From a virus: DNA of 57,804 nucleotides. Numbering within the stretch: position 1 is the first letter of the stretch; the number at the start of each line of letters is the position of its first letter. The DNA lies in IMG/VR virus record IMGVR_UViG_3300020467_000005, positions 1-57,804 of that record; one strand, 5' to 3'. Shown in pieces: positions 15,020 to 38,000 of this stretch. Below the pieces are notes generated by a model. It was not told the origin of the DNA and made no database searches. It worked only from the letters and a program-made list of their open reading frames with translations. The translations under genes and the position numbers were made by a program.

Positions 15020-16900
15020 TTATTCATCCTCATTTCTGACAGCACCAGTATATTCAACAGAGAATATCTTAGCAGTCGCACCAGAGGTGTTCCCTTGTAA
15101 TGTTTCACCCACAGTCCAAAGGTAAGTTGTACCGTTTGGAGAAACAAGATCTTTTATGGTTAATGTGTGCAAACCTTCATTAGTACCTATCACAGGACCT
15201 GCGGTGATACCAGTAGAATGAGCAGTCATACTTGAAGTTTGACCTTGCACTTGCTCGGATGATGTGAATGTATTACTATTAATATATTCAACGATTAGAG
15301 TAGCAGTAGATGTATGAGTATCTCCATCACCTAAAGCACCAGCAGACTGAATAGTTGCAACTAGAGACTGTGGATTACCATCATATATCTGATCACCTGC
15401 TTGGAATAGAGTAGTATTCTGTCCACCAAGTGTCTCCTCTATACCATATTTAGACGAGGCAATGCCACCATCTAAGTTAATCTGGTTTTCAAACTCAGTA
15501 CCAGTATTAATTAGATCAATAATACCATCACCTACACCGTCTAATTCATCATCATCTTCAAACTTTCTATTAAGAATAAGACTTAAAGGATTAGTGAATG
15601 CAACGATATCATTACCATCAAACTCTATTAATGTGTGAGGAGCAATACCAGTACCTGATGCTCCAGCAGTACCACCAACAAATGCTATAATTTTAGACTT
15701 TTCATTGGATCTACCACCATCAATAAACGCTAGTTCATCAACCTCAAAGGTTAAATATAGTGCTCTTTGCTCAGGATCCCAGTCATATACTATAGCAACT
15801 CGGTTATTAGATGATTCAATAACCCTTCTAACCTTGTCAGTTACTTGGAAACTATATGCAGTTAGTCCTGTATTTGGATCATCCTGTAGGTTATCTAAGA
15901 TAACTTTCTGGTCAAAACGGAAGTTAACACCTCTGTCAACACCAGTAAATGAGTCATAATCATCACCAAGTGATACAGCAGTCTTACCTGTATATCTTAC
16001 AATCTCTCTACCTATCAATAACTTACCTGAACCTGGATAAGGATCAGTAGTCTGCACAGTTATTGTACCAGTACTAGACGTAACATTAGATGTTAGTCCA
16101 GTTATATCATATACAGTAGAGTTTAGAGACTGCCTATTTCTTGCTTCTCTAATCAGGTTAGTATCTCTAGTGAAGATAATCTCTGGAGGAGTGGTATATC
16201 CACCTCCACCTGTCAATAGATCTATACTAGTAATCTTACCAAGATTAATGAATGCTTCAGCAGTAGCACCAGATCCACCACCTTTAATAATTTGTATAAG
16301 AGGAGGTGTCTCAAAGAATTCACCTTCATTAGTTAAAGTAATCTTTGAAACTTCACCAAACTGATTAACATTAGCAACACCAGTAGCACCTTGGCCACCA
16401 CCACCGCTAATGATGATATTTACGTCTTCCTCTGTGTAGTTTCTACCTTGTTCCTGTATAGCAAGAGAAGTTATCAAACCTGTTACTGGAACTAACTCAG
16501 ATCCAGATCCACCACCTCCAAGTATTTGTGCAGTGGCATCAAAATAAGTATCACCAGGTGTGGTCATCTGGATGAAATCTATACCACCATCATCTTTAAG
16601 GAATACCTTACCAGCTGCAGATCCATCAGAACCATCATCTTCTATCTTAAGACGTAATGGATCATATCCTTCACCTGGGTCTAATACTTCTACAGCAGTC
16701 AATTCACCTAAGTCACCTTCAATGACTGCTCTTAATACTGCGTCTCTTATAGGAGTACCACAATTCTCAACTCTTAGTCTTGGTGGATCATTGGGATCAT
16801 ATCCACTTCCTTTTGCTTGTACGTAAACATCCCTCACCCCAAATATACTATTGAATATTGGGATAATCTGAGCACCGCTACCTGGGACTGTTCTTGTCAT
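15020..16900 (-). CDS. Glycine-rich repeat virion protein (626 aa)
   Basis: The first 260 residues are made of about five copies of a short beta module, for example GSGYDPNDPPRLRV, GGGSGATAEAFINLGKI and GGGYTTPPEIIFT. The same module recurs in the giant protein, gp8 and the 1232-aa protein. The remaining part is beta-rich and ends with a TSGATAKI unit. The start is set by an ATGA overlap with the stop of the 493-aa gene (shared bases 16897-16900), a sign of translational coupling. A perfect late promoter follows the stop codon, so this gene ends a transcription segment. It is probably a baseplate or fibre component; I cannot assign it to a named T4 protein. Confidence 0.82.
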   Translation of the reverse strand: MTRTVPGSGAQIIPIFNSIFGVRDVYVQAKGSGYDPNDPPRLRVENCGTPIRDAVLRAVIEGDLGELTAVEVLDPGEGYDPLRLKIEDDGSDGSAAGKVFLKDDGGIDFIQMTTPGDTYFDATAQILGGGGSGSELVPVTGLITSLAIQEQGRNYTEEDVNIIISGGGGQGATGVANVNQFGEVSKITLTNEGEFFETPPLIQIIKGGGSGATAEAFINLGKITSIDLLTGGGGYTTPPEIIFTRDTNLIREARNRQSLNSTVYDITGLTSNVTSSTGTITVQTTDPYPGSGKLLIGREIVRYTGKTAVSLGDDYDSFTGVDRGVNFRFDQKVILDNLQDDPNTGLTAYSFQVTDKVRRVIESSNNRVAIVYDWDPEQRALYLTFEVDELAFIDGGRSNEKSKIIAFVGGTAGASGTGIAPHTLIEFDGNDIVAFTNPLSLILNRKFEDDDELDGVGDGIIDLINTGTEFENQINLDGGIASSKYGIEETLGGQNTTLFQAGDQIYDGNPQSLVATIQSAGALGDGDTHTSTATLIVEYINSNTFTSSEQVQGQTSSMTAHSTGITAGPVIGTNEGLHTLTIKDLVSPNGTTYLWTVGETLQGNTSGATAKIFSVEYTGAVRNEDE

Positions 16901-18378
16901 ACTACTACCAAATCACCTTTCATTGCTGGATGCATTGTGCACTGGTAAACATAAGTTGTACCAGCTGCTAGATCCATTGGGACTGTCCAATACTGGACTG
17001 ATTCTTGGTCTCCTGTTACTCCTTCAGTCACTGCTGTACCACCTGCTGTCTGTCTGAGAGCAAGAGGGTGTGCTGCTGTTGTAGTATTATTCAACCTGTA
17101 TGTAAATCCTCTATAGACATATATTGTTGGGTTATCTGTAGAAGGATCGACACCACCACCTGCTACTCTGTAAACACTATTGTTAGGTCCTGTGAAATTA
17201 AATCCTATAGTAGGTGATACTGTGGCATCCCAAGAAGTACCATTATGAATAAGATTGTTATTTTCTTGTGCAGTGTTAGAAATGTATACATCTGCGTTAA
17301 CCGTTACTGTGTTTGAAGTTACAGCAGTTGTTACACCCTGGCCACCAGCGACACTAAGAGAGGATGTTGCGAGGGCAGCAGTTGTAGTACCACTGTCTCC
17401 AGTTACTGTCCTATACGTTACTTGCTCTACATTAGGAGAGTCATTTGTAATTGTGAGATTATCTCCATTAACAGCAGTACTAATACCAGTCCCACCAATG
17501 AGGTTAATAGTAGCAGTCGTACTGCTTGCGGTTTTGTTTCCTGAGTCACTTCCTATTACTCCGTAGGCATTTTGGTTTGCATCACCCAATGCCCCTGTCA
17601 TGTTTATTGTGAGGGTGTCTCCGACGATTGCAGTCGAGATTTCAGTGCCTCCCGCAACTGTAAGGACATCAGTAGCAGCACTAGCAGTAGTACTGCCAGT
17701 GTCAGCAGTGAATCCTTCAAATAGATTTTGAGTGGTGCCACCACCTCCTCCACCCGAAGAATCATCATTTGCAGGCTCCCATGCACTGTTGCCAGCATTC
17801 CACTTAATAACTTGACCATCACTAGGACCTCCTCCTACTGTCATATCTACGTCGCCAAGATCACCAAGACTGTGATCCTCACCTATAATCTTCTTCCAAC
17901 CACTACTAGTAGCATATCTAGCTGCTCCATCACCAGATACATATGCAAACATACCATGATGAGTAACAGCATCGGGGAGATCACCAGTTGTAGGGAAGTG
18001 ATTACTATATTTTAGTTTACCATCAGCACCATCAATGTATGTTAAAGCAGATCCTGTGCCACCAGCCCAGAGATGAATGTCTCCACTGCCATTTGCTTGG
18101 ATTGCTATATCACCATTGTTTGCTGATATGATTTTATGACCACCAACGTCTACATCTTCTGTAAACTTATTAAATGACCCCTCAGCAAACTGAGCACCAT
18201 TCCACTTAAGTAGTTGATCCTGAGCTGGAGTGCCAACGTTGATTTGTAAATTGGTATCGTTACCGAGATTAGTATACAATTCATCAATGACGCTATTCAA
18301 TTTAATAGCACCATCTCTTAGACTGTCTCCAGTCCCATCGTTTGCCGACGATCCAATTGCTAGGGTTTGCTTTGCCAT
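16897..18378 (-). CDS. Virion protein with C-terminal cupredoxin domain (493 aa)
   Basis: The N-terminal 80 residues (SSANDGTGDSLRDGAIKLN and following) resemble the start of small fibre proteins seen in marine phages. Residues 90-390 are Thr/Gly/Asn-rich beta repeats (TTASAATDVLTVAGG and variants). The last 100 residues look like a cupredoxin: a hydrophobic strand pattern (TIYVYRGFTYRLNN), then AAHPLAL with H437, then YVYQCTMHPAMKG with C480, H483 and M486. C-x2-H-x2-M plus an upstream His is the type-1 copper ligand set of amicyanin. All four candidate ligands are present, so copper binding is plausible, though a purely structural role is possible. The gene overlaps the 626-aa gene by 4 nt and lies 23 bp after the YHYH gene. 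Confidence 0.85.
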   Translation of the reverse strand: MAKQTLAIGSSANDGTGDSLRDGAIKLNSVIDELYTNLGNDTNLQINVGTPAQDQLLKWNGAQFAEGSFNKFTEDVDVGGHKIISANNGDIAIQANGSGDIHLWAGGTGSALTYIDGADGKLKYSNHFPTTGDLPDAVTHHGMFAYVSGDGAARYATSSGWKKIIGEDHSLGDLGDVDMTVGGGPSDGQVIKWNAGNSAWEPANDDSSGGGGGGTTQNLFEGFTADTGSTTASAATDVLTVAGGTEISTAIVGDTLTINMTGALGDANQNAYGVIGSDSGNKTASSTTATINLIGGTGISTAVNGDNLTITNDSPNVEQVTYRTVTGDSGTTTAALATSSLSVAGGQGVTTAVTSNTVTVNADVYISNTAQENNNLIHNGTSWDATVSPTIGFNFTGPNNSVYRVAGGGVDPSTDNPTIYVYRGFTYRLNNTTTAAHPLALRQTAGGTAVTEGVTGDQESVQYWTVPMDLAAGTTYVYQCTMHPAMKGDLVVV

Positions 18379-18398: not shown

Positions 18399-18406
18399 TA
18401 TTTAGG
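18399..18406 (-). promoter_or_regulatory. Possible degenerate late promoter, CCTAAATA
   Basis: The minus strand reads CCTAAATAAC, 6 of 8 matches to TATAAATA, overlapping the stop codon of the YHYH gene and 20 nt upstream of the cupredoxin-protein ATG. Position and spacing fit the better octamers in this window, but the match is weak. Confidence 0.35.
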
Positions 18407-19994
18407 TGCCATCAAATGTTTGTAGTGTAGAGTCCATAGTAGATGAGGTACTATCGAATCTATTATCAGTGCTTCCACCATCTCCAGCACCCGCAACAGT
18501 TAATGTTACTGCATTAGAATCTAGTGGTGAGTTACTTGCAGCTTGTGGTGCACCTACAGGTCCAGCAATCCTACAACGGAATTTGTAACCAGTCATATAT
18601 GAAAGTGCAGTAACTGAATATGTGTCAGTTGTTGCACCAGTTATAGCAGCAAATGCGAATCCACCATCAGTGGATCTATACCATTGATATGCAACAGGTC
18701 CGTCTTCTGGTAATACCTGTTTCTGAATTGTGAATGTAGCAGTCTGACCAGCATTAACCGTTGCATTTTGTGGTTGCAAGGTAAATGTTAGGGTTGGTAC
18801 CACTCCACCACCTCCACCATCTCCACCACCAGCAGCAGCAGCCTCAACGGTGAACGTGGTGTCAATAGTTTCTCTAGTTTTTAGTCCAACAATGAATGGA
18901 AACTTAGTGATATCAGTGTTAGTTTCATCTACTGTTAGGAAATATGCATATGTACCGTCCTGATATTCAGGTGTAATGGTGAATCTACCGTTATGAAGGT
19001 CTAAATCACCAGTCCCTTCGACATATTCATAGTCCTCCATAAGAGTACCAGCTGGAGGATTATCACTTGTATTACCATAATCAGGTCTTCCTGCTATTTC
19101 TGTGTCTCTTACAGCATAACCAGTCCTCATTGTCCTAGTACCACTCAAATTATTGAATGGTGTAGCATAACCATAAGGTCCATAGATGGGAAATCCATCA
19201 AATGCTATGCCAATTATCTTAGAATGACCGTCTGGGTGACGAATATTGTCTCCATTATACTGAGTACCACCATAATAATCATTATATGATGCCATAGATG
19301 ACCCTGCTCTCCAACAATCTAGGAAATGTGGGTCATGATAGTGATATTGACCTGATTGTTCTGGGTGACCACCACAATTATCCTCTCCAGAGTTGACAAA
19401 AGTGAGATCTCCAGCAGCAACCCAACTAAAACCTGATGGAGGATTGAGTCCAGCACCAGCAGAAGGGTTAAAAATAGCAACTCCATTACCAGCAATGCCA
19501 ATTTGACCTAAAGGAGTGTCACCTCTTCCATTTCTTTGGTCAAAATACTCCATTGTACCACTAACAGGAGTAGTTGCTTGGTCTGCTACGATGAAATCTA
19601 GTGTAGTATCGGTAGATAACCAACATTCACCATCAATTGAAGTAAATGTTGTGCTTCTAAAGATGAATTTTTGCTTTAATCCATCACTAAAAACAACCAT
19701 TATCTCATCATTGACATCAATATCAGGGTTTGGACCAGTAAAAAGAGTTAAATCGTTTGTTGAGATTGTTGCTCTTCTAACAAATCCATCATGCGTATAT
19801 CCATTATTATCAAATGTGCGAGTAATTCCAAATGTGCCTCCACGGTATAAGAAATCATGATCCCAATCCTTCTCTTGTATTGTATTAGGGTTATTGTCAT
19901 TAGGGAACGCACCAGGAATCACAGGAGCAGGGAGGGCATCCGATGCTACTGTGATTATCTTGGTTGCGTTATCGTAGGAAGCAGTTGCTGCCAT
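18402..19994 (-). CDS. YHYH-domain protein with Ig-like C-terminus (530 aa)
   Basis: The middle of the protein carries the hallmark motif of the YHYH family (PF14240): SGQYHYHDPHFLDCW with Y217-H220, followed by IGIAFDGFPIYGPYGY and, further on, YVEGTGDLDLHNGRF and DGTYAYFLTVD. Family function is unknown; the clustered His, Cys and Asp suggest a metal site. Residues about 400-500 form an Ig-like domain (QPQNATVNAGQTATFTIQKQ, VAYQWYRSTDGGF), a fold common on phage surfaces. Residues before 100 are beta-rich. The giant protein just upstream carries a related YHYH-like segment and a related Ig-like C-terminus, so the two genes share modules. A late-promoter-like octamer lies 12-19 nt upstream of ATG 19994. 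Probably a virion surface protein. Confidence 0.85.
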   Translation of the reverse strand: MAATASYDNATKIITVASDALPAPVIPGAFPNDNNPNTIQEKDWDHDFLYRGGTFGITRTFDNNGYTHDGFVRRATISTNDLTLFTGPNPDIDVNDEIMVVFSDGLKQKFIFRSTTFTSIDGECWLSTDTTLDFIVADQATTPVSGTMEYFDQRNGRGDTPLGQIGIAGNGVAIFNPSAGAGLNPPSGFSWVAAGDLTFVNSGEDNCGGHPEQSGQYHYHDPHFLDCWRAGSSMASYNDYYGGTQYNGDNIRHPDGHSKIIGIAFDGFPIYGPYGYATPFNNLSGTRTMRTGYAVRDTEIAGRPDYGNTSDNPPAGTLMEDYEYVEGTGDLDLHNGRFTITPEYQDGTYAYFLTVDETNTDITKFPFIVGLKTRETIDTTFTVEAAAAGGGDGGGGGVVPTLTFTLQPQNATVNAGQTATFTIQKQVLPEDGPVAYQWYRSTDGGFAFAAITGATTDTYSVTALSYMTGYKFRCRIAGPVGAPQAASNSPLDSNAVTLTVAGAGDGGSTDNRFDSTSSTMDSTLQTFDGT

Positions 19995-20005: not shown

Positions 20006-20013
20006 TATTTAGA
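20006..20013 (-). promoter_or_regulatory. Late promoter-like octamer, TCTAAATA
   Basis: The minus strand reads CATCTAAATAAAAG, 7 of 8 matches to TATAAATA, overlapping the last codons of the giant gene and 11 nt upstream of the YHYH-gene ATG. A start 10-12 nt downstream would make an almost leaderless message, so it may be a chance match or may serve genes further on. Confidence 0.45.
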
Positions 20014-23000
20014 TGTCGTCAAAGATCAGATTAGGTGTGAAGTTACTGATTACAGTAGCACCTGTCTGGACGCTAAGGATAGCGGATAGTGAGTAAACTG
20101 GAGTTGCACCAGCAGCAGTGATTGCGACTCTGTATTCGTCACCATCGTCTGCCTGTTGAGCTGCATTTGTGTTGTATGTTGCTTGGTTTGCACCAATGAT
20201 GTTGCTCCAAGTCTGTGTACCATACTCCTTCTTCTGCCACTGATAATTCATTGTCTGATCATTAGTTACAGTAGAAACAACTGTGAATGCAGCAGTCTGA
20301 CCTTGGTTAACAGTTACGTTAACTGGATCCTGTGTGATTGCAATTGTGCCAGGAGTAATTCCTCCTCCACCACCAGCTTCGCCACTAGGACCTTCGCCAG
20401 CGAGTACGTCAAATCCACCGTTAATTGGACCACCAACAGGAGGTGTAAAGTCATCTGGGACTACGTTATCGATTGCGACAACAGGAGCAGTATAACCAAC
20501 ACCAGATGTCTTAACGTCAATACGTGTGATACCCATCAATGCTTTTAACTTACCATCAAATCCAGAGGATGAAATAACATCCACGTTAGGACGATCAGTG
20601 TAACCATCACCAGGATTGGTTAGTACTGCGTTAGTGATTTGACCAGAGGTAATCTCTGAGATAGCATCAGCATTTCTACCCTTAACTGATCCAGTATATT
20701 CAAATGTAATCAGTGAGTTAGAAGATTCAATTAGAGCAACTTCTCTTGAGAATTCCTCACCTTCGATGTCTAGTCTGTCACCAGCTTCGATTGGTGGAAC
20801 AACAGTTGCAGCTATAACGTCTGCGTCAGATCCAATATATGAGAAACCAACGAAGGTTGATCCCGCACGTGGGACTTCAGCAAAGATGATACGTGAACCA
20901 ACGATCTCGTATGCGACTCCTGGTTCCTGAATAATACCGTTAAGTGAAACGATAATGTTATTCTCAGGACGTATAGTGTTAGAAGAAACACCTTCAGTTA
21001 GTGTCAAGGAGTAGAATAATCCACCACGCTTAAGGTTGAATGAAGATCTCAATGAGTCAAACTCGAAGGAGATATCATCTAACTGACGTAACTTACCAAC
21101 GTAGTATCCGATAAATTCAGATCCAATGTCAGGTGCCTCAGCAAATTGTATCTTATCAGAGAATGCAACGTAAGAAGCATTACCACCAGGAGGTTGTAGG
21201 ATACCATTAACAAATGCAAGTAAGTGACCCGCAGGATCTGGGAAGTATGCTTCACCGTTAGAAACAGTTAGATCAAATATTGTTTGTGTGCCATCAAATC
21301 CTCTGAAGTATCTGTCAACTCTACCTTCAAGTGTGCGAGCAGAAGAAATACCTGCACCCCATCCGAAGTCAGATTTAAGTGACATATTATCAAGGAATGT
21401 ACCACTAGCAGATTGTACCCAGATAGTAGCAGTAATACCTGCTTGCTCTATAGCAACTACCTGTGCGTAAGATTGATAGTCAGTAGCAGTGTAACTAGCA
21501 ACACCAGCATATATGGTTGGGAAGTTAGATCCCAATTCTATCTTACCGATATTGTTACCAGCTTGTGTTAGATCTGTTAGAGGAGCACCAACACCCACGT
21601 CATTAATATTAGCAAGCCAGAGTTTGTGGATTCCATTATCAGGGTCATTAGTATACTTGGTTACTACAGCAGTGAATCCAGGATTCTTCTGCACAGTACC
21701 TTGTAGGAGTGAAACTTCATCACCAATATTAAATGTGTCAGAGATACCAGTATCAATAATTGCTACACCTAGATTCAACTCTAAGATTTGGACACCATGT
21801 ATCCACTGATTAAGTTGAAGTTGTGTACCACTAATACCCTTAATGTCTAAGATGTAATCAGTAACACTACCGTAAATTACATCTCCAGGTACCCATGGTT
21901 CCTCAATTGTTTCTACATCAATTGCGATTCTACCACCTTCATTGCTTACCAAAGATCCAGACTTACTTGTGTAGTTGTCCATGTATGCTTCGATAGATCC
22001 AACTTTACTGAAGAACCAATCACCTGTAGCAAATGCTCCTTTCTTAACGTTGATTAAGAATCTATCAGATGGAGCACCAACTGTATGAACTGCACCACTA
22101 TCAACACCCTCTAAGATATCACCGTCTGATATAGTACCAGCGATAGTATGGAGTTTGATAAATGATGTGCCATTCTCAGAATCAGGTTTTAACATCTGTA
22201 GCACAGTACCATTATTAGCAGTGCTATTCTGGACTTGTGCTGATTCTCCATTTACAAACTGGTCGTATGTACCAGGAGTTGTCTGAGCAGCAGTTGTTGG
22301 GAAGTGTGTAAAGAGTTTATAAATTAAACCTTCATTTGCATTGATGGTGCCGATCTCAGCATTAGCATTTGAGGTGCTACCAAATACAACATCAGCAGCA
22401 TTAAATCCACCTTGTATTGGACACTCTGAAGTATCAGTACCAAATGTAGCAGCAGTCCTAGGTACTCCATCTCTTCTTGTGACTGCCATTATTTGAGATC
22501 CAGCATTGGACTTATCAACTTGTAGAAGTCTAAATCTACCATCATGAATATAAGAAGCACCAATCTCAAACCAGTCAGCAGTACCAGTCAACACATAGAA
22601 GTATGGTTGCTTAGTAAGACCACTTAATGAATTCTCAGATGCTGGGATATATGTTAATACATCACCACGTCTAAAGTTGTTAGGACGCTCAATTCTAATT
22701 CTATATTCAGCACGATCATAACCTACATCAACTTCTGGAGTTAGACTTACTAGATCAGGATCAGTATTATAGTCAATACCCATCTCATAATTAGTAACTC
22801 TATTTGTGCAGTCTGTAGATGCTACGAATGTTACTCTTGCTTCAGTTGGGAATTGAGACATCTCTAAAGCATACTCAATTGGGTTGAGTGAAGAGTCAAT
22901 CATAAACTCAGCAGCTTCTTTATTCCACTCAAGTTTCTCTGGTGATTCAATTGTATAAACATCATATGGACTCCATCCAGTTTCAGCAAAGTCAAACAAT

Positions 23001-26000
23001 ACACTCTTAGCATATTCACGAACTCTTGCAAGACAGAATATAAGATGAGTCCTTGTTACATTGGTGTATGCAATAAAGTTACCTTCTCCATCAAACCAGT
23101 CTTGTGTCATTCTGAATGCACCAGCATTACCCTCAGTAACTAAATCATATCTTATTGCTTTAACACAATCATTAGCAAAGTCAATTGTTAAGTTAGTAGT
23201 TGGATAGTTAGTCTGAGTCTCAGCAAATGCTCTACCAGCAATTGCTTGCTTATTGAAGAGAATCATATTAGAAATCAACTTACTATTATTAGATCCATTA
23301 CCAAGTGCATCGGTAAACAGATCCATCAATGTGTCAACTGCTGACGTTACGTTATAGCAAGTACCTGACTGGAAGTCAGCATTACTATTGTATGGGAATG
23401 TCTGAGTTATAGTAGACAGATGATTAGTCTGGACATTTGCTGCTTTATCAATTGTCTCGATAAAGATATCAGCTAATGTGTTAATAGCAGATGCAGTTTC
23501 TTGACATGTCTGATTCCATGAACCACTATTACCTTGACCACCATTTACAGTGTCATAAGTAACAGTCTTATCTCTAATTACAACGTCAGGAGTATACTTG
23601 ACGGGCCAAACAATTGGTAGTGAGTAAGATCTACCCGCAACGTTATTAGGATTCTGAATAGCATCTGATACTAGTGCCATTAAGGTACCAATTTCACTCT
23701 CTACACCAGAACCTTCGGTGCCTGTATAATCCTCTGAAACTCTACGTGCACGATAGTATGATAGATCTGTCCTTAATGGATATGCATAAGATCTTATAGA
23801 TTGGACAGGTAATATCTTACCGTCAGCATAATCTGTCACACGAGGATATGTGTGGTTAGTAGCATTACTATCTTGACTACATGTAAATGTGAGTCCATTA
23901 GTGTCAATCGTTATAGCATCATCTGTGCGTAATACATGATTAGCAACAGTCAATGTTAACTGACCTGTAGTAGGCTCATAGTATGCATCAGTAGGTGTAA
24001 GTTGAGTGCCATCATTAACAACATTAATTGCACCTGTTGCAGCACTTACAAAGTTATGCTTATAATTACCACCCTGTATTAAACATCCACTGTTGGCACT
24101 TACAAACGTATGCTGATATGTCTTACCAGCTGGTGATACACCTACGTTGATTCTTATCTTACCATTCTGGACTCTAATACCATTGTCAATACATGACTTG
24201 AATGTATGTGATCCTAAGAAGGTAGATGGGACACCCTTAAGTACTTGGACATCAAATTGATCAGTAGTTATATTAGATACTGCTAACCATTCATTACTTG
24301 CATGATCTGTAGGTCTTGGATATAAATGAGTAGTCCTATCAGCATCAAGATCACATGAGAATCCTAAAGCATAATCTTGGATATAAACGTAATCATTCGC
24401 TTTCCATATACCATTAGTCTTAGCAGATACAAATGCGTGTTGATAGTTACCACCACCAATAACAGCACCAGGTATTGCACTAACGAATGTATGATCGTAT
24501 AGATCAGCAGTAGCTGCGATATTTACGTTAACTGTAATCTTACCACTTTGTCTGTGTAATGTGTTATTCTTGAAGTGCTCAAATGTATGAGTGTGGTTAC
24601 CACCAGCAGTGATAGCATTATTTGTAGCAGAAGCAAATCTATGTGTGTGGTTTCCAGCAACAGTTGATCCTACATTAACAGTAATTGTAGAATTCTTCTT
24701 CTCTAATCCATCAGTAACAGCACTTACGAATGTGTGTGCATAATCACCATTACCTCTGATTGTTCCTCTGATAACTGCACCAGTTTCAACCCTTTCAATT
24801 TGATGAGTTGTAGTGTTAGAAGAAATACCAACATCAACTGTATATGTGTTTGCATCTACAACAGTAAGAGTTAACCAATCACCAGCAGCAGGATCTTGTG
24901 CTCTAGGATAAGCATGCTCAGTTGCAAAACTATCTTCCTGACACTTGAATACAAAACTCTCATTCATCAACTGAATCTTATCACCACTTGTGAATGGATG
25001 AGCATTATGAGTGATTGTTAGTATACCTGTTCCAGGGACATAAGATGCTGTTGATGGAGTGAATGCATTTTCAGATCTTACGAATTGGTGAATTGATGTG
25101 TTACTTGACTTGCTAACGTGTACTGTGATTGTATCAGCAGTAGCAGCAAGAATAGGTACTGAAGTATTATAGAATGGGTCAGTAGATCTTGGATACTTAT
25201 GCTCACTACCGAAGCTGTCAGCATTACACTTGAATACTAATGACTCTTCCTCAATGTAAACTGCTTCATGTGCATACTTAAGACCGTTAGTTGTAGCAGA
25301 CACAAATGTGTGTGGTGAAGTAACAGACTGAGGAGCAGTTTGTAATACCATTACATCAAATGTATCATCAGTAATGTTAGTTACTTCTAACCATCTATCA
25401 CTTGGGTAATCAGTAGCACGTGGATATGTATGATTGTCAGTAGGATTATCAGCATTAGCGATACCAACTTGGACTGTAATTGTTGTAGGAGTTGGGTTGG
25501 TTACTGCAAGTTGTACTCCAGATGCAGGGTCAGTCGCACGTGGATATGCATGGTTAGTTGCATTATTATCAGCATCACAAGTGAAGGTTACACCACCATT
25601 AACAATGCTAACTGTATCAGAAGTTGTCAAACTATGTGACCCAATTTCCAAGACTAAAAGTCCAGTATTAGGATCGTATGTTGTACCAGTTGCAGCTGTG
25701 TATGTTGTAGTACCATCGTTAATAGCATTGTTAGTGCCACTTACGAATACGTGAGTTCCAGTAGATGCAGCACAGTTGAATGTGATGGAGTTATCGTCAA
25801 ACTTAACTCTGTCTCCAATCTTCATTCCATGTCCAACAACAGTAGCTGTTAATATACCAGTTGTAGGATTATAAGCAGCATCAGTAATTGTAGTTTCGCC
25901 ACCACCCTTGTAGTTGTGTGGTCCAATGGTGAGCACCATATCACCTGTAGTAGGTTCAAATGTTGCATCAGAAACTAGGTAGTTAGCACGAGGTGTTGTA

Positions 26001-29000
26001 CCAACATTAACATCAAAATTATTACCAGAAACATTAGAAACTTCTAACCATTTCTCTGAAGCATAATCTGTTGATCTTGGATAAGAATGATTAGTTGCAT
26101 TGTTATCCATTGCACAGGTCATTACTAGAGAATGATCAGCAATTCTTATATGGTCACCATTAGCAAATGGGTTATTAGCAACTGTTAGTTGTAAGTTACC
26201 AGTAGTAGGATTGTATGTAGCACCAGATGCTGAGTACTTAGCATGACCTACTGCTCTAATTTCAATAGCTTGATCATGTGCTCTATCTCTTAACGCTCTA
26301 AGTCCATTAGAAGCAAATGATTGGAAACTATGTGTGAATGATCCACCAGATCTGATTGATCCTCTCTTAACAGCACCAACTTTTGCTCTCTTAAATGTAT
26401 GAGTAGATGTGTTAGTAGAAGGAATATTATCTAATACTTGGACTCTGAATGTGTCGTTAGTTACGTTATCAATAGTTAACCATTTACCACTTGCAGGGTC
26501 ACCTTTTCTTGGATAGTTGTGCTCAGTAGCATGATCATCTTTACCACATGTGAATACTAATGAGTTATCAGCAAACATGATTTGCTCCCCATTAGACATT
26601 CCATGACCAGCAATAGTAACAGTCATAAGACCAGTACCACCACTATATGAAATTGCAGTTGGCGTTACACCGACAGCAGGTTTGAATACGTGAGTTGTAG
26701 TGTTAGAAGATACACCAACATTAACCGTAATGGTACTATCATCAACAGCAGTTACAGCAACAGCATCTTGATATGCTGGGTCGTCACCAGATGCACCACT
26801 TTCTCCATTTGCACGAGGATAGAAGTGATCAGTTTGATAGTTATCTAATCCACAAGTAAAGCAGAATGCTTTATGGTTAATGTATACACTATGATCAGTT
26901 GTAATACCATGATCAGGACCAACAGTGATTACCATTACACCTGTATTAGGATTGTAATCTACATTCTGAGGATCATAACTCTTAAACTCAGATTTACCAA
27001 CGAAGATTTTGTATGTGTTATCATCGATATACTCGATAGGCTTCCACTTACCACTGATAGGATCAGTAGATCTAGGATAAGTCTTGTCACTGGTACTACC
27101 ATCCATTGTGCAACGCAATGTTATTGCATTGTCATCAATCTTAACAAGAGATCCTTCATCTAATCCATGAGCATTAGAAGTAATTGTTAAGTAACCTGTT
27201 ACTCCATCAAATACAGCATTTGTAGGAGTGAAAGTATCTTCAGTAGTCCTTGGATATGCATGAGTAGTCTGATAGTTATCCTGACTACACTCCATTGTTA
27301 TACCACCGTCAGCAATCTGAATACTCTGACCAACCTTAAGTGGGTGAGTACCAATCTCAATCTCTAAGTGACCAGTTGTTGGTTCGTATGAAGCATCTAC
27401 AGGTGTGTATTGGACAGCAGCAGTTGTGCCTACTTCAACATCAAAACCATCTGTAGATACGTTAGAAATTTGTACCCACTTACCACTGATAGGATCTGTG
27501 CCTCTAGGATATGCATGACTGCTAGAATCATCATCCATGTTACATGACATGGAGAATGCATAATCTTCAATCTTAATGTAGTCTCCATTTGAGAATCCAT
27601 GCTTGGATAATGTTAGTGCCAATATACCTGTTGATGGTGTGTAACTAGCAGCAGTTGGAGTATGTCTTGTAACACCGTCATCAACAATTCTTAGAGAATC
27701 ATTGTATGCAGGATCAGTTGTTCTTGGATAAGAATGCTCTGTGGATCCACCATCTTTAGAGCATGTGAATGTTAAAGCATTCTCAGGAAGTTTAATACTA
27801 TCATTACCCTTCATTAGAGTAGCAACAGTTATACTTTGTGGTCTAGCAGATACAAATGCATGAGTAGTAGTGTTGCTAGAAGGAATGTTGAATAGGACTT
27901 GGACATCGAAGGTATCTTTAGTAACGTTTTTAACTGTCATCCATTCATCACTATATGGATCAGATGCCCTTGGATAAGCATGCTTAGTTTGATCACTATC
28001 TTGATCACATGTGAATGTTACAAATCCATCATCCACCATAACTCTGCTACCATTCTTAAGACCGTGATTAGCAACAGTCAATGTCATAATACCTGTAGAA
28101 GGAGTATATGCAGCATTGGTTGGTGTTAGTTTTGCAGGAGCAACAAACTTATGTCTGTAGTCACCACCAGAAGCAACTGTTGCTCTGGTAATAGCACCAG
28201 TCAGAGCACTTACAAATGTATGAAGAGTCTGGTTAGATGATGGGACATTATCAAGGACATGGACATCAAATGTGTCATCAGTTACGTTCTTAATAGGTAT
28301 CCACTTGTTGTTTACTGGATCACCAGATCTAGGATATGCATGGTTAGTTTGGTTAACATCTTGTAAGCATGTGAATACAAGTGAGTTAGTACCAATCTTG
28401 ATACTCTCATCTTCCATGAATCCATGATTAGGAATTGTGATGGTCATCCAACCTGTTGTTGGATTATAATCAATAGCAGTTGGAGTATATGATTCACCAA
28501 GTGCATGGAAGGTGTGGTTATATGCACCACCTGCCTTCAGACTATTAGCAGAAGCAGATACAAAATTATGACCAGTTGGATGAGTGATCTGACCATTACC
28601 AACATCTAATGTGATAGTACCATTCTGTCTATGTAATGAGTTATTTTCACAAGATACAAATGTATGATTGTAAACATCATTAACACCAGATTTACCTACA
28701 TGGACAGTGAAACTTGTATTACTTACATTAGAGATAGGTAACCACTTACCAAATGTAGGATCTGTCTTTCTAGGATATGTGTGGTTAGTTGCATTATTAT
28801 CTTTTGTGCATTGTAATGTAATAGCATTCTCATCAAACATTACAAAGTCATTTGCCTTCCAAACAGCATCAGTTGCCACAGATTGAAGTACATGAGTTGT
28901 AGTGTTAGAGATAGCACCTTCACCCATGAAGTTACCAACGTTAACATCGAATGAATTACTACCAACATTAAATGCTTTCAACCACTTGCCACTAGCAGGG

Positions 29001-32000
29001 TCAGATGATCTTGGATATGCATGATCTGATGCTTGACTATCTTCATCACAACGGAATGTAAATCCACCATCAGCAAGAAGAAGCATATCTCCATTCTTAA
29101 CAGAATGACCATTAAGACTGATTCTCATGGTACCTGTAGCAGGATAGAATATAGCACCACTAGGTGTCATTGTGCTATGGTTACCAAAACTGTTACTCAT
29201 GGTAACTACCATAGTACCAGCAGTAGGATTGTAAGTTACATTTGTAGGACTATGTGATGTCTTACCTACTTCATGAATAGGAATATTTGTATCGAAGAAG
29301 TAATCCTTCTTATGAGTGATGCAGTTTGTAGCAGCACTTACGAAAGCATGAATTGTAGTATTTGTTGAAGGTACTACATCTAATACTTCTACGTTAAATG
29401 TGTTAGCAGTAACATCATGAATCATTATCCACTTACCACTTACAGGGTCTGTTGCTCTTGGATATGTGTGGTTAGTAGAATTACCATCCTTAGCACATGT
29501 GAATGTCAAGGAGTCGTTAGCAATCTTAACGTAAGTGTATGGAAGGAATCCATGATCAGGAAGAGTAAACTTAAGATGTCCTAGATTAGGATCGTAAGAT
29601 ACATCAGTTGGTGTATGAGTTGTGCCAGCTCTAGGATATGAATGATTAGATCCATGACTATCAGCACCACATGTAAATGTAACTGCACCTTCATCTAATC
29701 TCACGCTATCTCCAGCATGACGTAGAGCACCAACAGTAGATGTTGAGTAAGTATGATCGTAAATACCACCACTTACAATCTGTGCTCTAGTAATACAGTT
29801 ACCAACAGCACTAGAGAATAGATGAGTTGTTGTATTACTCTGAGGAATAACTGTGTTGACTGTAACACCGAATGTGTCTTCAGTAACATCATGAATCTTC
29901 AACCATGATCCAGAAGCAGGATCACCAGGACGAGGATAAGCATGAGTAGTCTGATGATCATCCATAGCACATGTTAATACTATGCCATAATCATCGATCT
30001 TAATCATGTCACCATTTTCCATTCCATGACCAGCAATAGTCACTGTCATAACACCTGTAGTAGGATTATGATTAACATTTGTTGGAGTATATCCTGAGTT
30101 AGGGACATAGGTATGGACACTCTGATCTGAGATAGCACCATCACCAACGTTAAGAGTTATAGTTCCATCTCTCTTAGTAATTCCATTTGAAACAGCAGAC
30201 GCAAATACGTGAGTTGTTGTGTTAGTGGAAGGAGCATATGATAATACTTGTACGTCAAATGTATTTGCAGTTAAATTAGATCCTAATACACGTTGCCATC
30301 TATTTGCATATGGGTCTGTTACTCTTGGATATGAGTGATCAGATGATTGACCATCTTCATCACAACGGAATACTAATGAATTAAGGAGGAATTTAACATC
30401 ATCACCTTCTTGTAATCCATGAGGATTAGCAGTAGTGATGGTCATTATACCTGTAGTTGGATTATATGTTGTACCACCAGTAGCAGTTAAAGGAGTACCA
30501 TCATATAGCACTTCTATTGACTTGTTATAGAATGGGTCTTGACCAGTAGGACGTGGATAATAGTGGTAACTATTATTAGCATCTAAGAAACATGTGAAGT
30601 TAATAGATTTTGTTGCTAGTCTTACACTCTGTCCTCTTCTTAGATCATGATCACCAATAGTAGCAACTAAGTGACCGTTAGCAGGAGTAAATGTAGCAGC
30701 AGAAATTGTAAATGGTAATGCAGGTGTTCTTCCAACATATACATCGAATGAATCCTTAGAAACATTTCTAAGATCCATCCACTTACCACTCATCTGATCT
30801 GTTGGTCTTGGATAAGCATGAGTTGTTGCATGGTTATCCATTGAGCAAGTGAATGTTACTCCACCATCAGCAATCTTAACGTAATCTCCTTCAGCAAAGT
30901 TGTGGTCAGCAACTGTTAATCTCATTAAACCAGTTTGACCATTATATTCACCACCAGTAATATTATGAATACTTTCTCTACGGAATCCATGCTTTCTATC
31001 AAGTGTTAGATTTAGATGACCATCAGCAGGATTAAATGAAGCACTATTAATGTTGTATGCTATTTGAGGTGTTGTACCTACATTAACAGTAATAGAATCT
31101 GAAGTAACACCAGTAATTGCTATAGGCTCATTATGTACTGGATCTTTAGGTCTTGGATATGAGTGCTTAGTAGCATGGTCATCCATATCACAAGTAAATG
31201 TCAAGCTTCCTTGTGACAGTTTAATATGTGTTCCGACTGCTAAACTATGTGATCCAATTGTTAATGTAAGAGCACCAGTAGTAGAGTTGAATGTAGCATC
31301 AGTAGGTGTCCAACCTTTAATTGGAGATGGACCTACATTAACAGTAAACCAACCATCTTCTTGATTAGACTCAATAACTTCTAACCATTTACGTGTAGCA
31401 GGATCAGAAGATCTTGGATAAACGTGATTAGAATAATGATCATCCATTGAGCAAGTAAATGTCATGGAGTTTTCCATGATTTGTATCTGCTCTCCTGGGG
31501 CAATCTTATGTCCAGATACAGTTAGTTTTAATACACCAGTATATGCATCATATTCAGCATAAGTTGCTACATGAGTCGAAGCACCAACGAAACGATGCTG
31601 ACCGATATCCATTTCTAACTCACCAGTATTCTGATCGTAAATAGCATCAGAAACATCATACTCAACTTTAGGAGTAGATCCTACATTAACTGTAAATAGA
31701 TCCTTACTCTCAACAGATTCAACTAACAACCACTGATCACCAGCTGGATCTTTTGGTCTTGGATATCCATGCTTAGTAGCATTATTATCTTGAGCACATG
31801 TGAATATTAAAGATCCATTTTCAATTCTTACTTGATCACCAGTCTTAAATCCGTGATCATCAATCTTAATTGTTAATACTCCACTATCAGGATCATATGA
31901 TGAATCTTGTGCAGTATGAACTGAATGGTTTGTCATTCCATGATCAGGAATGGTCAACCTCATAATACCTGTATCAGGAGTATAAACAGCATTAGTTGCT

Positions 32001-35000
32001 TTATGGTCACTACCATATGTTTCTAACACTTCAATAGTAGTATTACCAGCAGGGTCACCAGATCTAGGATAAGAATGTGTTGAAGCATTACCATCCATAT
32101 CACAAGTGAAGTTAATAGAGTTGGTTGTCAATCTAAGGAATGTACCCTCTGTATGATTGTGTGATCCAACATTCATTATTAAATCACCAGTACTGGAATC
32201 ATATGCAGCATGGGTGCAGTCATACTTGATAGTAGGAGCAGGACCAACATTAACAGTAAATGTATTAACAGGTGCAGTCTCACCAGTAAGATTGGAAGAA
32301 TTTCCAACACCATATCCAGCATAATTTGCATCTGCCCATATTCCAGATCCACCAGCTAAACCAGTATATCCACCACCTTGAGTTTCAGCAGATCCAATAG
32401 ATACACCGTCAATCCATAATTCAACTCTACCTTTACCAGAACCTTGGTTACCACCAACATTTATTTGCCATACTAATTCATGGTCACCATCATCAAAGTA
32501 TGATGATAGGTTGCTGATCTGTAGATCAAGCATTGCAAGACCATTCTCAGAATGACTAGCACCACCAGAGTAACTATTAGATCCATCACCAGCTCTAAGT
32601 CTTAAATATGTGCCACTATCTCTAACACCAAACCATACACCAGCTGATGCTCCACCTGCTTCAAATATACATCCATCAATAGGACTGGATGCTAATTTAG
32701 CAACACAACGGAATACAGCATCTTCATTAGGTACTAAACCACTACCACTATCAGTTGTAGAGATCTTATCTTCACCAGCTTTGAATGATCTGGTAATAAT
32801 ATTATTATCTTCACCTTCTATTAATCCATCTTCATCAGAATTGAATAATGCAGTTGTAGGTCTTGGGACAGCATCATAGAATCTCTGATCTACAGTCCAA
32901 CCAGCATCATTACTAATTACCTGACCCTTCATTGCACGAATTGCAAATTCCTGTGCTTTGTTAATAATCCAAAGAGATTCAGTAGGAGCATTAGTAACGT
33001 GATCTAAGTTACCAGAGTAATTGGTATAGAACTCAGATGCATACTGAAGCATATTAGTACCACCATACTTGAGGTTGAATACCATTGCTCTGAGTATATC
33101 AGTAACGTCATGGACACAGTTAACAGGACCACCAGGAATTGCTAAGTTAGGGAATTGGACTAAACCAGCAGCAACTGCTTGCTCTGCAATATATCTGATA
33201 TTGCCATCAATAGCATCACCACAAAGTTTAAATAATTGATCTTTAGGATTCTGATTATAACTTTCAACTGCTGATGATCCATCTGATTGAGTCATGTCAT
33301 AATCATGACCAAATGCATTACGCATTGTGCAAGTTAAGATATCTCTTAGAAGTTTAACTACAGTGATAGATGCTTCCCACTCAGTCTCAATATGCTTAAG
33401 TGAGTTATTTTCTGTCTCAACATATAATGCAGCTGCATCCCATACCTTTTCATTACAATCAAAACGTATATCATGAACCATTGCTTCGATCATGTCTAAG
33501 ACATCATCTTCACAGTTAACATGACCATCAGGAATCATTAGGTTTCCATACTTAGAAAGGTCATTCATTATGCTGACACATTCTTTAGCGATTACTGATC
33601 TGTTATTCCAGATCATATCAGCAGCATCAAGATACCTATCATTGTTTGCTCTGTTCTGGTTGTTAGGATATCCTTCAGTATCCTTAACGATTGCAGAATC
33701 TCTATATGCAGTTTTACTAGTCCACTGAGGAGTATAATATTCTTCATGTGCCCATGCAGCAGCATTAAGAGCAGCACCATCATTATCTAATAATGCACCA
33801 GCAACTTCACCAGGAGACATTAGAAGGTTATTAATTGCCTTCATAGCAAGCATCTTAGTATAGTCAAATGCATCATTCAATGCAGCAAGCTCATGCTCAA
33901 CATGGAGGATATTCTTTTGATCATCAAGATACTTGTCAATAACAGCTTGAGTTTGGAATGTACCACCAGTAACTAAGTCAGCAATTACACCAGGAATAAT
34001 GAAGTCCTTAATATCTCTCTCACAATATGGTTGACCATATCCAGGCATCTCTAAGAAGTCAAAGACAACACCATCAATAGTTTGCTGATACTTGTCTTGA
34101 ATATATCCAGCAGTCTCTTCTGCAATATAATCTCTATTCTTCCAAAGTTGGAATCCACCTTCTCTAAATCTCTGATCGTTAGGTGCAATAACCTTAAGAA
34201 GATCAGTCATCAAAGTATCAACTTCATCTTGGACATTCTGTGATGCAGGAGATGTGAAGTTGTTAGGTATTCTATATCTTGTAGTATATGTGCCTGTTAG
34301 AGTTGCACTAGTTGTAGTAATTATTTCCTTAGTAAGTTTTGCTACTTCATTCCAAACATATAAAGATTGTAGAATCTCTTCTCCAATGAAGTCTAACTTA
34401 CCACCAACTGTTAGATAAGTCCTAGCAGTATAGATTGTATGATAGTTACCACCTTCTCTAAGGTCTTTAATTAGAGCACCAAGAATATAGTCCTTAGTAT
34501 CTCTGATACATGTATCAGTACCACCATAACTGTTTTGAGCAGGGACATCACCACGAATGTTGAAATCACTAAATGCCGCCTTCATTCGACCCACTGCTTC
34601 TTCAGCAATGTAAGCACCGTTAAGGTCAATGATATCAGCACAGTCTCTATATTCCTGACGACCTAGATCAACGTCCTCAGCAATGATTGCTAATCCTTCA
34701 TAATCAATTCTCTTAGAAGTTGTAGAAGATGATCTCTGACCACTATACTTAGCGTATACTTCCTCAGTAGACAATATAAATGGTGCCTCACCATCTAGAC
34801 CAAATACGATATTAGCATTGGTATAATCTACCTGAGTAGGTGCAGTGAATCCAGTTGTATAAGCACCAACACCCTTCCAGACGCAGACGTTATCAACGTG
34901 TCCAGACCAATTAGTAGCACCGTTGAAATCTTGTCCAACATATAGAGCAGCATAGAGGTAATCGTTAGTGTCAGCAGCGTTTCCACCAAGTTGAGCACCA

Positions 35001-38000
35001 TTAATGTATAACTGAGTAACTCCACTGTTTCTACTAATAGCAATGTGATGCCATGTGCCAGTTGTAGTAACTACGTTACCACTGGTTAATAGTTGGGTAG
35101 TGCCATTATAAACCTTAATTGCTTGTGCATCTTGGACAATTCTTAAACCTTGAGTAGCACTTAAACGACGGAAGTCAAATAGTGTTTGTAGGGTTGTATT
35201 TGTAGCAGATCTAAACCAACCTTCAATAGTGAAGTCTCCAGTTCCAAAGGCGTAATCATAAGAAGCAGGACTGCTTAATGCACCATTTGTCGGAATATAG
35301 ATGGATTTAGTACCACTTAATTCTGCTTTCTTAACAATTACACTTTGAGTGCAATTAGTGAAAGTTAGAGTAGAGTTAGTGATATATTCACCTGCTTGGA
35401 ATACTCCAGTTACAGGACCAGCGAATAACCATTTAAGACCAGAATTAACACCGATTGACTGGAATAGTGCTCCAGAAGTCATACCCTTGATCTGGTCACC
35501 CATTACGAATAAACCAGTTGACTTATCCTTATAACCGATCTTAGTTGTCCTAATAGTTTCATTTGCTTCAAATGTACCATCAGTAACAGCAAGAGCATTA
35601 ACATTGGTTAAATTACCTGCTGTCATTGCAGTTGTAGCAATGGTTCTTAAGGTATCGATATATGACTTAACATTGGCACAATTGTTGATATCTTGGTTAT
35701 TACCAGATGCATAGTTAAGATCATAGTTATTAGCAGGAGCAGATCCACCAGAGTAAGTAGTAGGATCATTAAGGTTATATCCTTGTCCAGAGAGATCCTT
35801 CCAATACATTAGGTTATTAATCGCTCTATACATGAATGTACCAGCAGCAGTAAATGCATGAACTGCTTCTGCCTCTTCACCAACAATACCGTTAGTTAAA
35901 GGAGTACCAGCATCATCGAAGAATTTTTTAGTGAATTCAACTGTATTGAAGTTACCACCTTGTCCAACATCATTAGCAATAGCATCAATCATGTATCCAA
36001 GGTCTCTTCTGCACTTTTCTTGGTGTGGTGAGTATGTGCCACTTGCTTCAGCAGGAAGATCATTTAAACTTGCATTATTCAATACTTCATTGATAAACTG
36101 ATGTAAAGTTGTAATTGCAGCTTGAACGTCTGAGCAATTTGCAGAATCAGTATTTGAAGCATTAGATCCAGCAGTACCGTAAGGATCGCCAGGTGATTGG
36201 TCAGCAGTGATTGTAAGGTCTTGATATGCAGTCCAAGAGTCACCAGAGTTAACAGCGTTGATTGTTCCTGAATATCCGTTTGCAATCGCAACATTCATGC
36301 GATCTTTTGCTTTTTCGTAAGCAAATTTGGTTTCTGCAACCTCAGCATTAACATAAGTGAATGTTCCGTTTTCATCGAAGTATTGTTGGACAAACTTACG
36401 AGAATAGCGGTTTCCACCAGCATAGATGTCTATAGAAACTGCATCGATGAAATATTCAAGATCTCGCTTACATTTCGCATCTGAAGGAATTGAAGATGAA
36501 GGATATTGAGTTTTCATGTCATCAAACGCCATTCCAGCAATCATTGCCTTATTCTTCTGAATCATCCTGTAAGCGTCTTTAAATCGACTCCAAGAGTTAG
36601 TAATGATGTCAGATGGGAAATAATAGTCTGGATAGTCAATTGCAATTGCAGCTTCTGCAAAATCGATGATTTCTTGCTTATTATTGGAAATATTACGTCT
36701 TGCATCAAGGAATCTATTTGCAGCGATTCCATGATAAGTAGAAACTGGATTTCCGTAAAACGCCTTCTTATTACGGATAATCATTCCATCAGTTAAAGTA
36801 CCACCAGTTAATTGACTATAAGTGACTTCAGTAGTCCTTACTTGCTCAAAATTCAAGAAGTCAGCATTAATTCTTTGACTAGAATCATAAAGCTCGGTAG
36901 GAGTAATAGAAGACTGTGAAATGTCGTCTAAGATGACATTAGGATTCTCAAGACTAACTAAACGCTCGAATAGTAGTCCGAAGAAAGTTGTTCCTTTGTT
37001 AATGATCAATTCATCAACAACTTCACCATTAATAGGATCTTGATAAGGAGCAATGAATGTAATCTGGCCTGCGATTCCTGATGAGGCAGAATAAATGTAC
37101 TCATTAAGTCTAAAGTCAAATATACCAGTTTCAAACTTAGGAGTACCTGAAGTCTTACTTACAACTAGTCTATCTGTTACATTACCTTGATTATCTACGT
37201 TAGTCTCTTCAACGTATGCAGTGTCACCATCTAAGTTAGTAAGTGATTCACCAAACTCAAATATGGTAGGAGTGTTAAGAGGGGTAACTGTTTCAATCAA
37301 TGCAGCGAATAATTCACCTCTCTTGAGTTGCTCGTTAAGTTGGAAGGTACCAGTTAAATTAATAACGTCTAAATGATTAGTACCTGAATCAATAACAGTA
37401 CCAATGGTATCTGATAGAGCACCTTGGACTTGTTGTCCTAATGTTGGGAAAATACCATAGTTAGATCCACCACCATCATTGTAAAGTGCAATTCTGTAGA
37501 TAGTAGTAGGTGTAACAGATATAGTTCTATAGTTAACCTTAGATGGTGGTTTAGGTGGCTCAGCAAATACTAAACTACCACCAACAATTTGATAAGCAGT
37601 ACCAGGTGACTGAATGATACCATTCAGAGTTATCATCAACTGGTCTTGTTTAACAATAACAGTTTCACCTTCAACAGTGATTGGGAATGACTTCTTAATA
37701 CCATCAAACTGATCTTGGACATTATCCATCTTCTTAACAATAGAAGTTAAGATCTCCTCAGAAGATGTTAAACGCTTCTTACGGAAGAGAACCTCAGTAT
37801 TGTTATAATCAGTATAGATTGGTTGAGCAGCACCAAATGATGTAATCTGGTTTACATTACTATAGTTGTTAATGTTAACCTTCTTAGTAAACTCAGTACC
37901 GATCTTACGTCCAGATACGTCCTTACCACCAGTCAGTTGTAACTGACCAAACATATTGAAACCAGCAGGGTGGTTATTTTCTAATACCTGTGTCTTCCAT

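Follow-up and report, generated by a model that had tools for sequence, protein, structure and literature searches.

A putative type 1 copper cupredoxin domain in a gp9-type baseplate protein of marine phages

Closest described systems

In phage T4, gp9 is the link between baseplate and long tail fibre; the T4 particle carries six gp9 trimers, and the protein has no C-terminal cupredoxin. A 57.8-kb viral contig (IMG/VR record IMGVR_UViG_3300020467_000005, analysed over its full 57,804 nucleotides and called the window below) encodes a protein that resembles T4 gp9 (1qex/1pdp; PF07880) in its N-terminal segment and in its apparent baseplate role. We think it probable, and the best overall explanation of the data, that the last ~105 residues of this protein are a type 1 (blue) copper cupredoxin of a virion family used as a building block of tail proteins.

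Amicyanin (TIGR02657; 1aac) resembles the domain in fold, in ligand order and in its C-x2-H-x2-M loop with a threonine after the cysteine (CTMHPAM in gp9), and it is the sole named NCBIfam match of the window domain as well as one of the top matches of the family profile in the PDB. It differs in that the gp9 domain is fused to a virion protein without an apparent signal peptide, has HP where amicyanin has HN at the first ligand, and is not expected to have a methylamine dehydrogenase partner. The N-terminal type 1 copper domain of the three-domain nitrite reductase (NiR) of Hyphomicrobium (2dv6, 6tfo) is the closest by VIA-align and, like the gp9 domain, is fused into a larger oligomeric protein; that protein is an enzyme with partner copper sites, whereas gp9 shows no sign of being an enzyme. 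Plastocyanin, including phage petE (TIGR02656), belongs to the same superfamily and has the same ligand types, but petE has a C-x2-H-x4-M loop and an apparent signal peptide and is encoded by a gene of its own in phages that also carry the domain. The nearest non-phage relatives found are small bacterial cupredoxins (loci L341-L344) ending in YQCTIHxGMxGT, nearly identical to the phage motif; they differ in being short proteins on cellular contigs (e.g., Gemmatimonadetes and Actinomycetota contigs L341, L343 and L344), and some of these proteins seem to carry a lipoprotein or signal sequence. For marine phages, tail-bound metal has been proposed in T4 gp37-type fibres, where iron is bound by HxH motifs in the fibre trimer (PMC11705849), unlike the Cys/His/Met set of the gp9 cupredoxin.

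Fold and ligands of the C-terminal domain

The open reading frame (ORF) in question lies on the minus strand (16897..18378) and encodes 493 amino acids (aa). Its C-terminal cupredoxin domain was modelled as residues 376-493 (16900..17253, minus strand) and has a core of residues ~389-493, so that it may be taken to start at 17253 or at 17214. The first putative copper ligand, His437 (17068..17070), lies in TTTAAHPLALR and is followed by the invariant Pro438, while the thiolate Cys480 (16939..16941), the second histidine His483 (16930..16932) and the axial Met486 (16921..16923) all lie in YQCTMHPAMKG (all on the minus strand). The original prediction had placed the four residues at exactly these positions and had read them as the amicyanin order C-x2-H-x2-M, and both statements are borne out, as the four align with the four ligands of amicyanin in the phmmer and the family profile alignments. 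The interval it gave for the domain, 16897-17100, holds all four ligand codons but begins ~40-50 residues inside the domain. Cys480 is the sole cysteine of the protein, and across all stop-to-stop frames of more than 100 aa in the whole window the pattern C-x2-H-x2-M was found only once.

When searched alone, the window protein matched no copper family in Pfam, and the link to cupredoxins required a family profile. The single sequence reached amicyanin only weakly with phmmer (E 0.037), and the domain matched TIGR02657 with E 2.9e-5 and 24.4 bits, below the cut-off of 110.2. The family profile, searched against the PDB with hmmsearch, gave 95 hits at E<=1, with amicyanin at E 5.2e-6 and NiR, plastocyanin and rusticyanin also matched; copper proteins make up nearly all of the 60 matches listed. 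Among 65 family members, 35 matched PF00127 (Copper-bind; best E 2.7e-5) and eight matched PF13473 at E<=0.1.

An AlphaFold2 (AF2) model of residues 376-493, built with 64 relatives, has nine strands, a mean predicted local distance difference test score (pLDDT) of 93.3 and a predicted template modelling score (pTM) of 0.83. In the numbering of the model, C105 ends strand 100-105, H108 lies in the following loop, M111 immediately precedes the last strand (112-117) and H62 lies shortly ahead of strand 64-67; as modelled, this arrangement is the canonical one for a type 1 site. The best Foldseek matches are rusticyanin (E 1.8e-6), Hyphomicrobium nitrite reductase, amicyanin and plastocyanin, and blue-copper proteins head the VIA list as well. 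The Foldseek template modelling scores are moderate (0.4-0.56 by query length), and the superposition is therefore that of a distant relative. With VIA-align, the N-terminal cupredoxin of Hyphomicrobium NiR (2dv6_A 24-131) was superposed at Z 10.5 and 2.3 Å over 93 residues with 24% identity. Taken together, model and alignments make it almost certain that the domain has a cupredoxin fold with a type 1 ligand set.

In order to leave the C-terminus unselected, gp9 homologues were chosen by their N-terminal domain only, using the patterns [AP]ND[GN]TGD[TS] and LR[AD]G[AG]xK[ILV]N[DSA]. This yielded 80 loci, 75 of them with a complete gp9, and an alignment of 76 sequences including the window. 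The C-terminal domain is present in 75/75 complete proteins, ending 1-2 residues from the stop, and H437, C480, H483 and M486 are each 100% conserved (76/76), while identity to the window domain among the 75 ranges from 37 to 99% (median 44%) and most other positions vary. Free loss of the ligands among homologues, which would have told against the original prediction, is thus not seen. The alignment holds 15 invariant domain positions, and the chance that a random four would fall among them is ~2e-4, a figure that ignores relatedness. In a diverse set of 65 sequences, only seven columns are invariant (G49, H62, P63, Y103, C105, H108, M111), and four of these are the ligands. The loop itself has the form C-x2-H-x2-M/Q in 71/75 proteins; in the other four it is longer (CGIPSHTSM, CGIPSHVNM, CGIPSHTAM, CTIHETNM) and retains C, H and M. 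Known blue-copper families likewise differ among themselves in loop length while the ligands stay. A disulphide role for C480 was considered and rejected, since the cysteine at this position is the only one in 69/75 homologues.

Virion family, carrier protein and gene neighbourhood

A tblastn search with the window domain found it in 304 phage records, nearly all of them cyanophages, at one place per record. Given this number and the invariance of the ligand columns in 76/76 gp9 sequences, the domain is not a chance occurrence. A related domain from phage Mosig, used as a second query, led to fibre or structural proteins of SAR11 phages, the 39-kb phage Baldr among them, of four Methylophilales phages and of further cyanophages. 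P-HM1 has four copies in three proteins, among them gp7 and a subtilase-containing protein of 1832 aa, and a tail fibre of 1197 aa in Sf-CH5 has the domain close to its N-terminus. With copies in several virion proteins across cyanophages and phages of SAR11 and Methylophilales, the domain is, judging from sequence, a reusable virion module of marine tailed phages and not tied to photosynthetic hosts. The original prediction had mentioned similar tails in other marine phage proteins, and their wide distribution is supported here.

An iterated profile over the collected loci and the window aligned 521 domains of this wider family. In 480 domains with letters in all four ligand columns, 453 have the set HCHM and 23 have HCHQ, proportions that are biased because some of these loci were fetched with patterns including the C..H motif; the gp9 set is free of this bias. 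The HCHQ domains are of the YYWCHYHTGQG type, and their change from methionine to glutamine is the substitution known from stellacyanin. Degenerate copies also occur (L312, HSSV; L311, YSAM; L231, HCQE; L261, HCHL). L312 and L311 are multi-cupredoxin proteins in which one copy has lost the ligands while others are HCHM, and they provide natural controls for a metal-free fold. In L138 and L139, the ORF downstream of gp9 has at residues ~374-602 an HCHQ-type cupredoxin that is apparently inserted inside another cupredoxin, the outer domain flanking the insert with a first-His half (SSHPMQFS) and a C..H..M half (YYYCGNHRYMSG). The syn9 homologue of this ORF has the C..H..M motif at that place, without the C..H..Q motif of the insert.

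The gp9-like matches of high identity inspected in records titled Nonlabens, Euryarchaeota and Gammaproteobacteria (L334, L335, L336, L337) were rejected as cellular relatives, as they encode phage gp9 or virion-type proteins and, by their sequence, look like phage DNA in bacterial or archaeal assemblies. L334 (NZ_RMVE01000006.1), from the assembly of Nonlabens xiamenensis, is a contig of 188,235 bases with a P-TIM40-like gp9 and neighbours. Its gene content and its size, near the 188,632 bases of P-TIM40, make it likely that this contig is a phage genome within the bacterial assembly.

The carrier had been described as a fibre-like virion protein. It is indeed a virion protein, but the matches identify it as a gp9-type baseplate wedge and tail-fibre connector rather than a generic fibre. 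Over its whole length it matches PHROG 677 ('baseplate wedge tail fiber protein connector', E 6.6e-132), and its N-terminal, putatively virion-anchoring segment (residues 3-73; 18160..18372, minus strand) matches PF07880 (T4_gp9_10_N; E 4.6e-9, 37 bits against a cut-off of 25) and, with phmmer, the structures of T4 gp10 (5hx2) and gp9 (1pdp). The phmmer alignment extends to about residue 107 of the 288 in T4 gp9, and the window protein has the cupredoxin as its C-terminus. Three fibre-like repeats of ~45 residues each (GDSGxTTAS...TLTIAGGTxIST...GDTLTIN; residues ~220-365; 17284..17721, minus strand), recognized by sequence inspection, precede the domain. An AF2 monomer of the whole protein has a mean pLDDT of 71.6 and a pTM of 0.33, with pLDDT 93-96 at residues 391-493 and low to middling values in the repeats; as it is poor outside the C-terminal domain, no arrangement of the fibre part is derived from it.

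On one side of gp9 lies a YHYH protein, on the other a PHROG 708-type wedge protein of 626 aa and then gp8, and P-TIM40 and P-RSM6 show the same ORF order around gp9 with similar ORF sizes. The YHYH-family protein (530 aa; 18402..19994, minus strand; PF14240, E 4.6e-35) lies directly upstream of gp9 and contains the motif GQYHYHDPHFLDC, which could also bind metal. An ORF of similar size occupies this position in P-TIM40 and P-RSM6, and in the Nonlabens contig a YHYH protein is found there. Half of the record is taken up by a single 28.7-kb gene (20009..48688, minus strand) for a protein of 9559 aa, in which residues 5527-8281 comprise 26 copies of a repeat, [FLM]xC-x2-D-x6-H-x-YPR, one copy having K for H. 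With one cysteine and nearly always one histidine each, these repeats are a possible second metal-binding array.

Copper binding and possible roles

Conservation and model strongly suggest that the gp9 domain binds copper in the virion, since a free thiolate, two histidines and a methionine or glutamine in such a layout make up a type 1 site, and no other function that would preserve all four residues is known to us. As gp9 is without an apparent signal peptide and the particle would be assembled in the cytoplasm, the site is probably loaded with copper at or after lysis. The copper would tie together two parts of the beta-sandwich, with the first histidine standing at the edge of one sheet and the Cys-His-Met group coming from the C-terminal loop. 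A sandwich tied in this way may form a rigid tip that docks the tail fibre or touches the host surface, its metal-fixed face making the contact to fibre or host. By T4 stoichiometry, 18 sites per particle are possible. We favour, by analogy, a metal-locked docking module at the fibre-attachment site over electron transfer as the main role of the domain, the chances for and against it being roughly balanced.

Some observations weigh against this interpretation. In characterised blue-copper proteins, the residue after the first histidine is usually asparagine or serine, and the invariant Pro438 of gp9 is a second-sphere difference, so that the site may be atypical. T4 gp9 lacks the cupredoxin, and a role at the fibre joint is thus posited by analogy. 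The degenerate copies in other proteins (L312, L311 and L231) suggest, at the level of sequence, that the fold can persist without a metal site.

The ligands might also be historical or metal-free and the domain a stable beta-sandwich only, serving as a spacer or for adhesion, an option that the original prediction had left standing. This would agree with the loss of ligands in some family members of other proteins (L312, L311 and related segments without the first histidine), but the retention of all four in 75/75 gp9 proteins at 37-99% identity, and loop-length changes that spare the ligands, make it improbable. An origin from an auxiliary metabolic plastocyanin, fused by recombination and serving photosynthetic electron transport during infection, could be proposed because cyanophages carry petE (PMC3037559) and because one relative is annotated as PetE. 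A true plastocyanin above the TIGR02656 cut-off is, however, encoded by a separate gene elsewhere in the genome in 7/11 phages tested, and the translated ones carry what looks like a signal peptide as well as a CGPH[KQ]GAGM loop. Only petE genes exceed this cut-off in the 11 genomes, the virion domain of P-HM1 reaching 19.2 bits against 87.85, and the window domain has no match to TIGR02656 at E<=1. There was no significant pairwise BLAST match between the gp9 domain and syn9 petE, and phages of non-phototrophic hosts carry the domain as well. In Synechococcus phage S-SCSM2R, the gene labelled PetE (L083 5770-6276; PQ898602.1 170926-171432) encodes a virion-type cupredoxin, the true petE of that phage being located at 61-321. 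We have therefore rejected petE as the identity or origin of the gp9 domain, and an explanation by plastocyanin is close to refuted. For annotators, it follows that virion cupredoxin domains can be mislabelled as petE.

Type 1 sites characterised with such a ligand set act in electron transfer, which speaks for a redox trigger, in which Cu(I)/Cu(II) cycling at the host surface would gate fibre deployment or adsorption, for example in response to day- or light-dependent redox conditions near a photosynthesising cell. Adsorption is light-dependent in some cyanophages, including P-HM2, which carries copies of the domain, and light-independent in the T7-like P-SSP7 of the same study (PMC7112961), but this is a single pair with many further differences. 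Not all cyanophages adsorb in a light-dependent manner (PMC7112961), yet all sampled gp9 proteins of this type carry the domain; its presence in phages of the non-photosynthetic SAR11 and Methylophilales argues against a purely photosynthetic cue, and no redox partner is known. We regard a redox trigger as conceivable, if unlikely. The further-reaching proposal that functional blue-copper centres are general in the tails of marine tailed phages and that the copper state of gp9 switches fibre deployment or host adsorption in response to redox conditions or light, as a metalloprotein sensor on the particle, seems to us distinctly unlikely. The virion might alternatively capture scarce copper from seawater or lysates, the loaded tip being recognized by, or delivered to, an outer-membrane receptor for metal uptake, comparable to the 'Trojan horse' or 'Ferrojan horse' of iron. 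Such copper capture or mimicry would be analogous to the iron proposal for marine phage tails (PMC11705849) and would fit a domain that phages of unrelated marine Gram-negative hosts have in common and that is carried by the baseplate protein connecting the fibre. It is improbable, as a buried type 1 copper is usually not readily released and T4 gp9 is not the fibre tip.

The novelty of the gp9 domain lies in a well-known metal-binding fold in an unreported setting, conserved near-perfectly. No report of a cupredoxin or blue-copper protein in a phage virion, baseplate or tail fibre was found in the open-access full texts searched, a search that most subscription journals and preprints lie outside. 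To our knowledge, the gp9 domain would, if metallated, be the first virion cupredoxin described. Cyanophages, SAR11 phages and Methylophilales phages would then be copper-carrying particles with possibly at least 18 sites each, which would matter for phage attachment, for adsorption that depends on light and for the speciation of copper in seawater, and copper may be present on the tails of many ocean phages.

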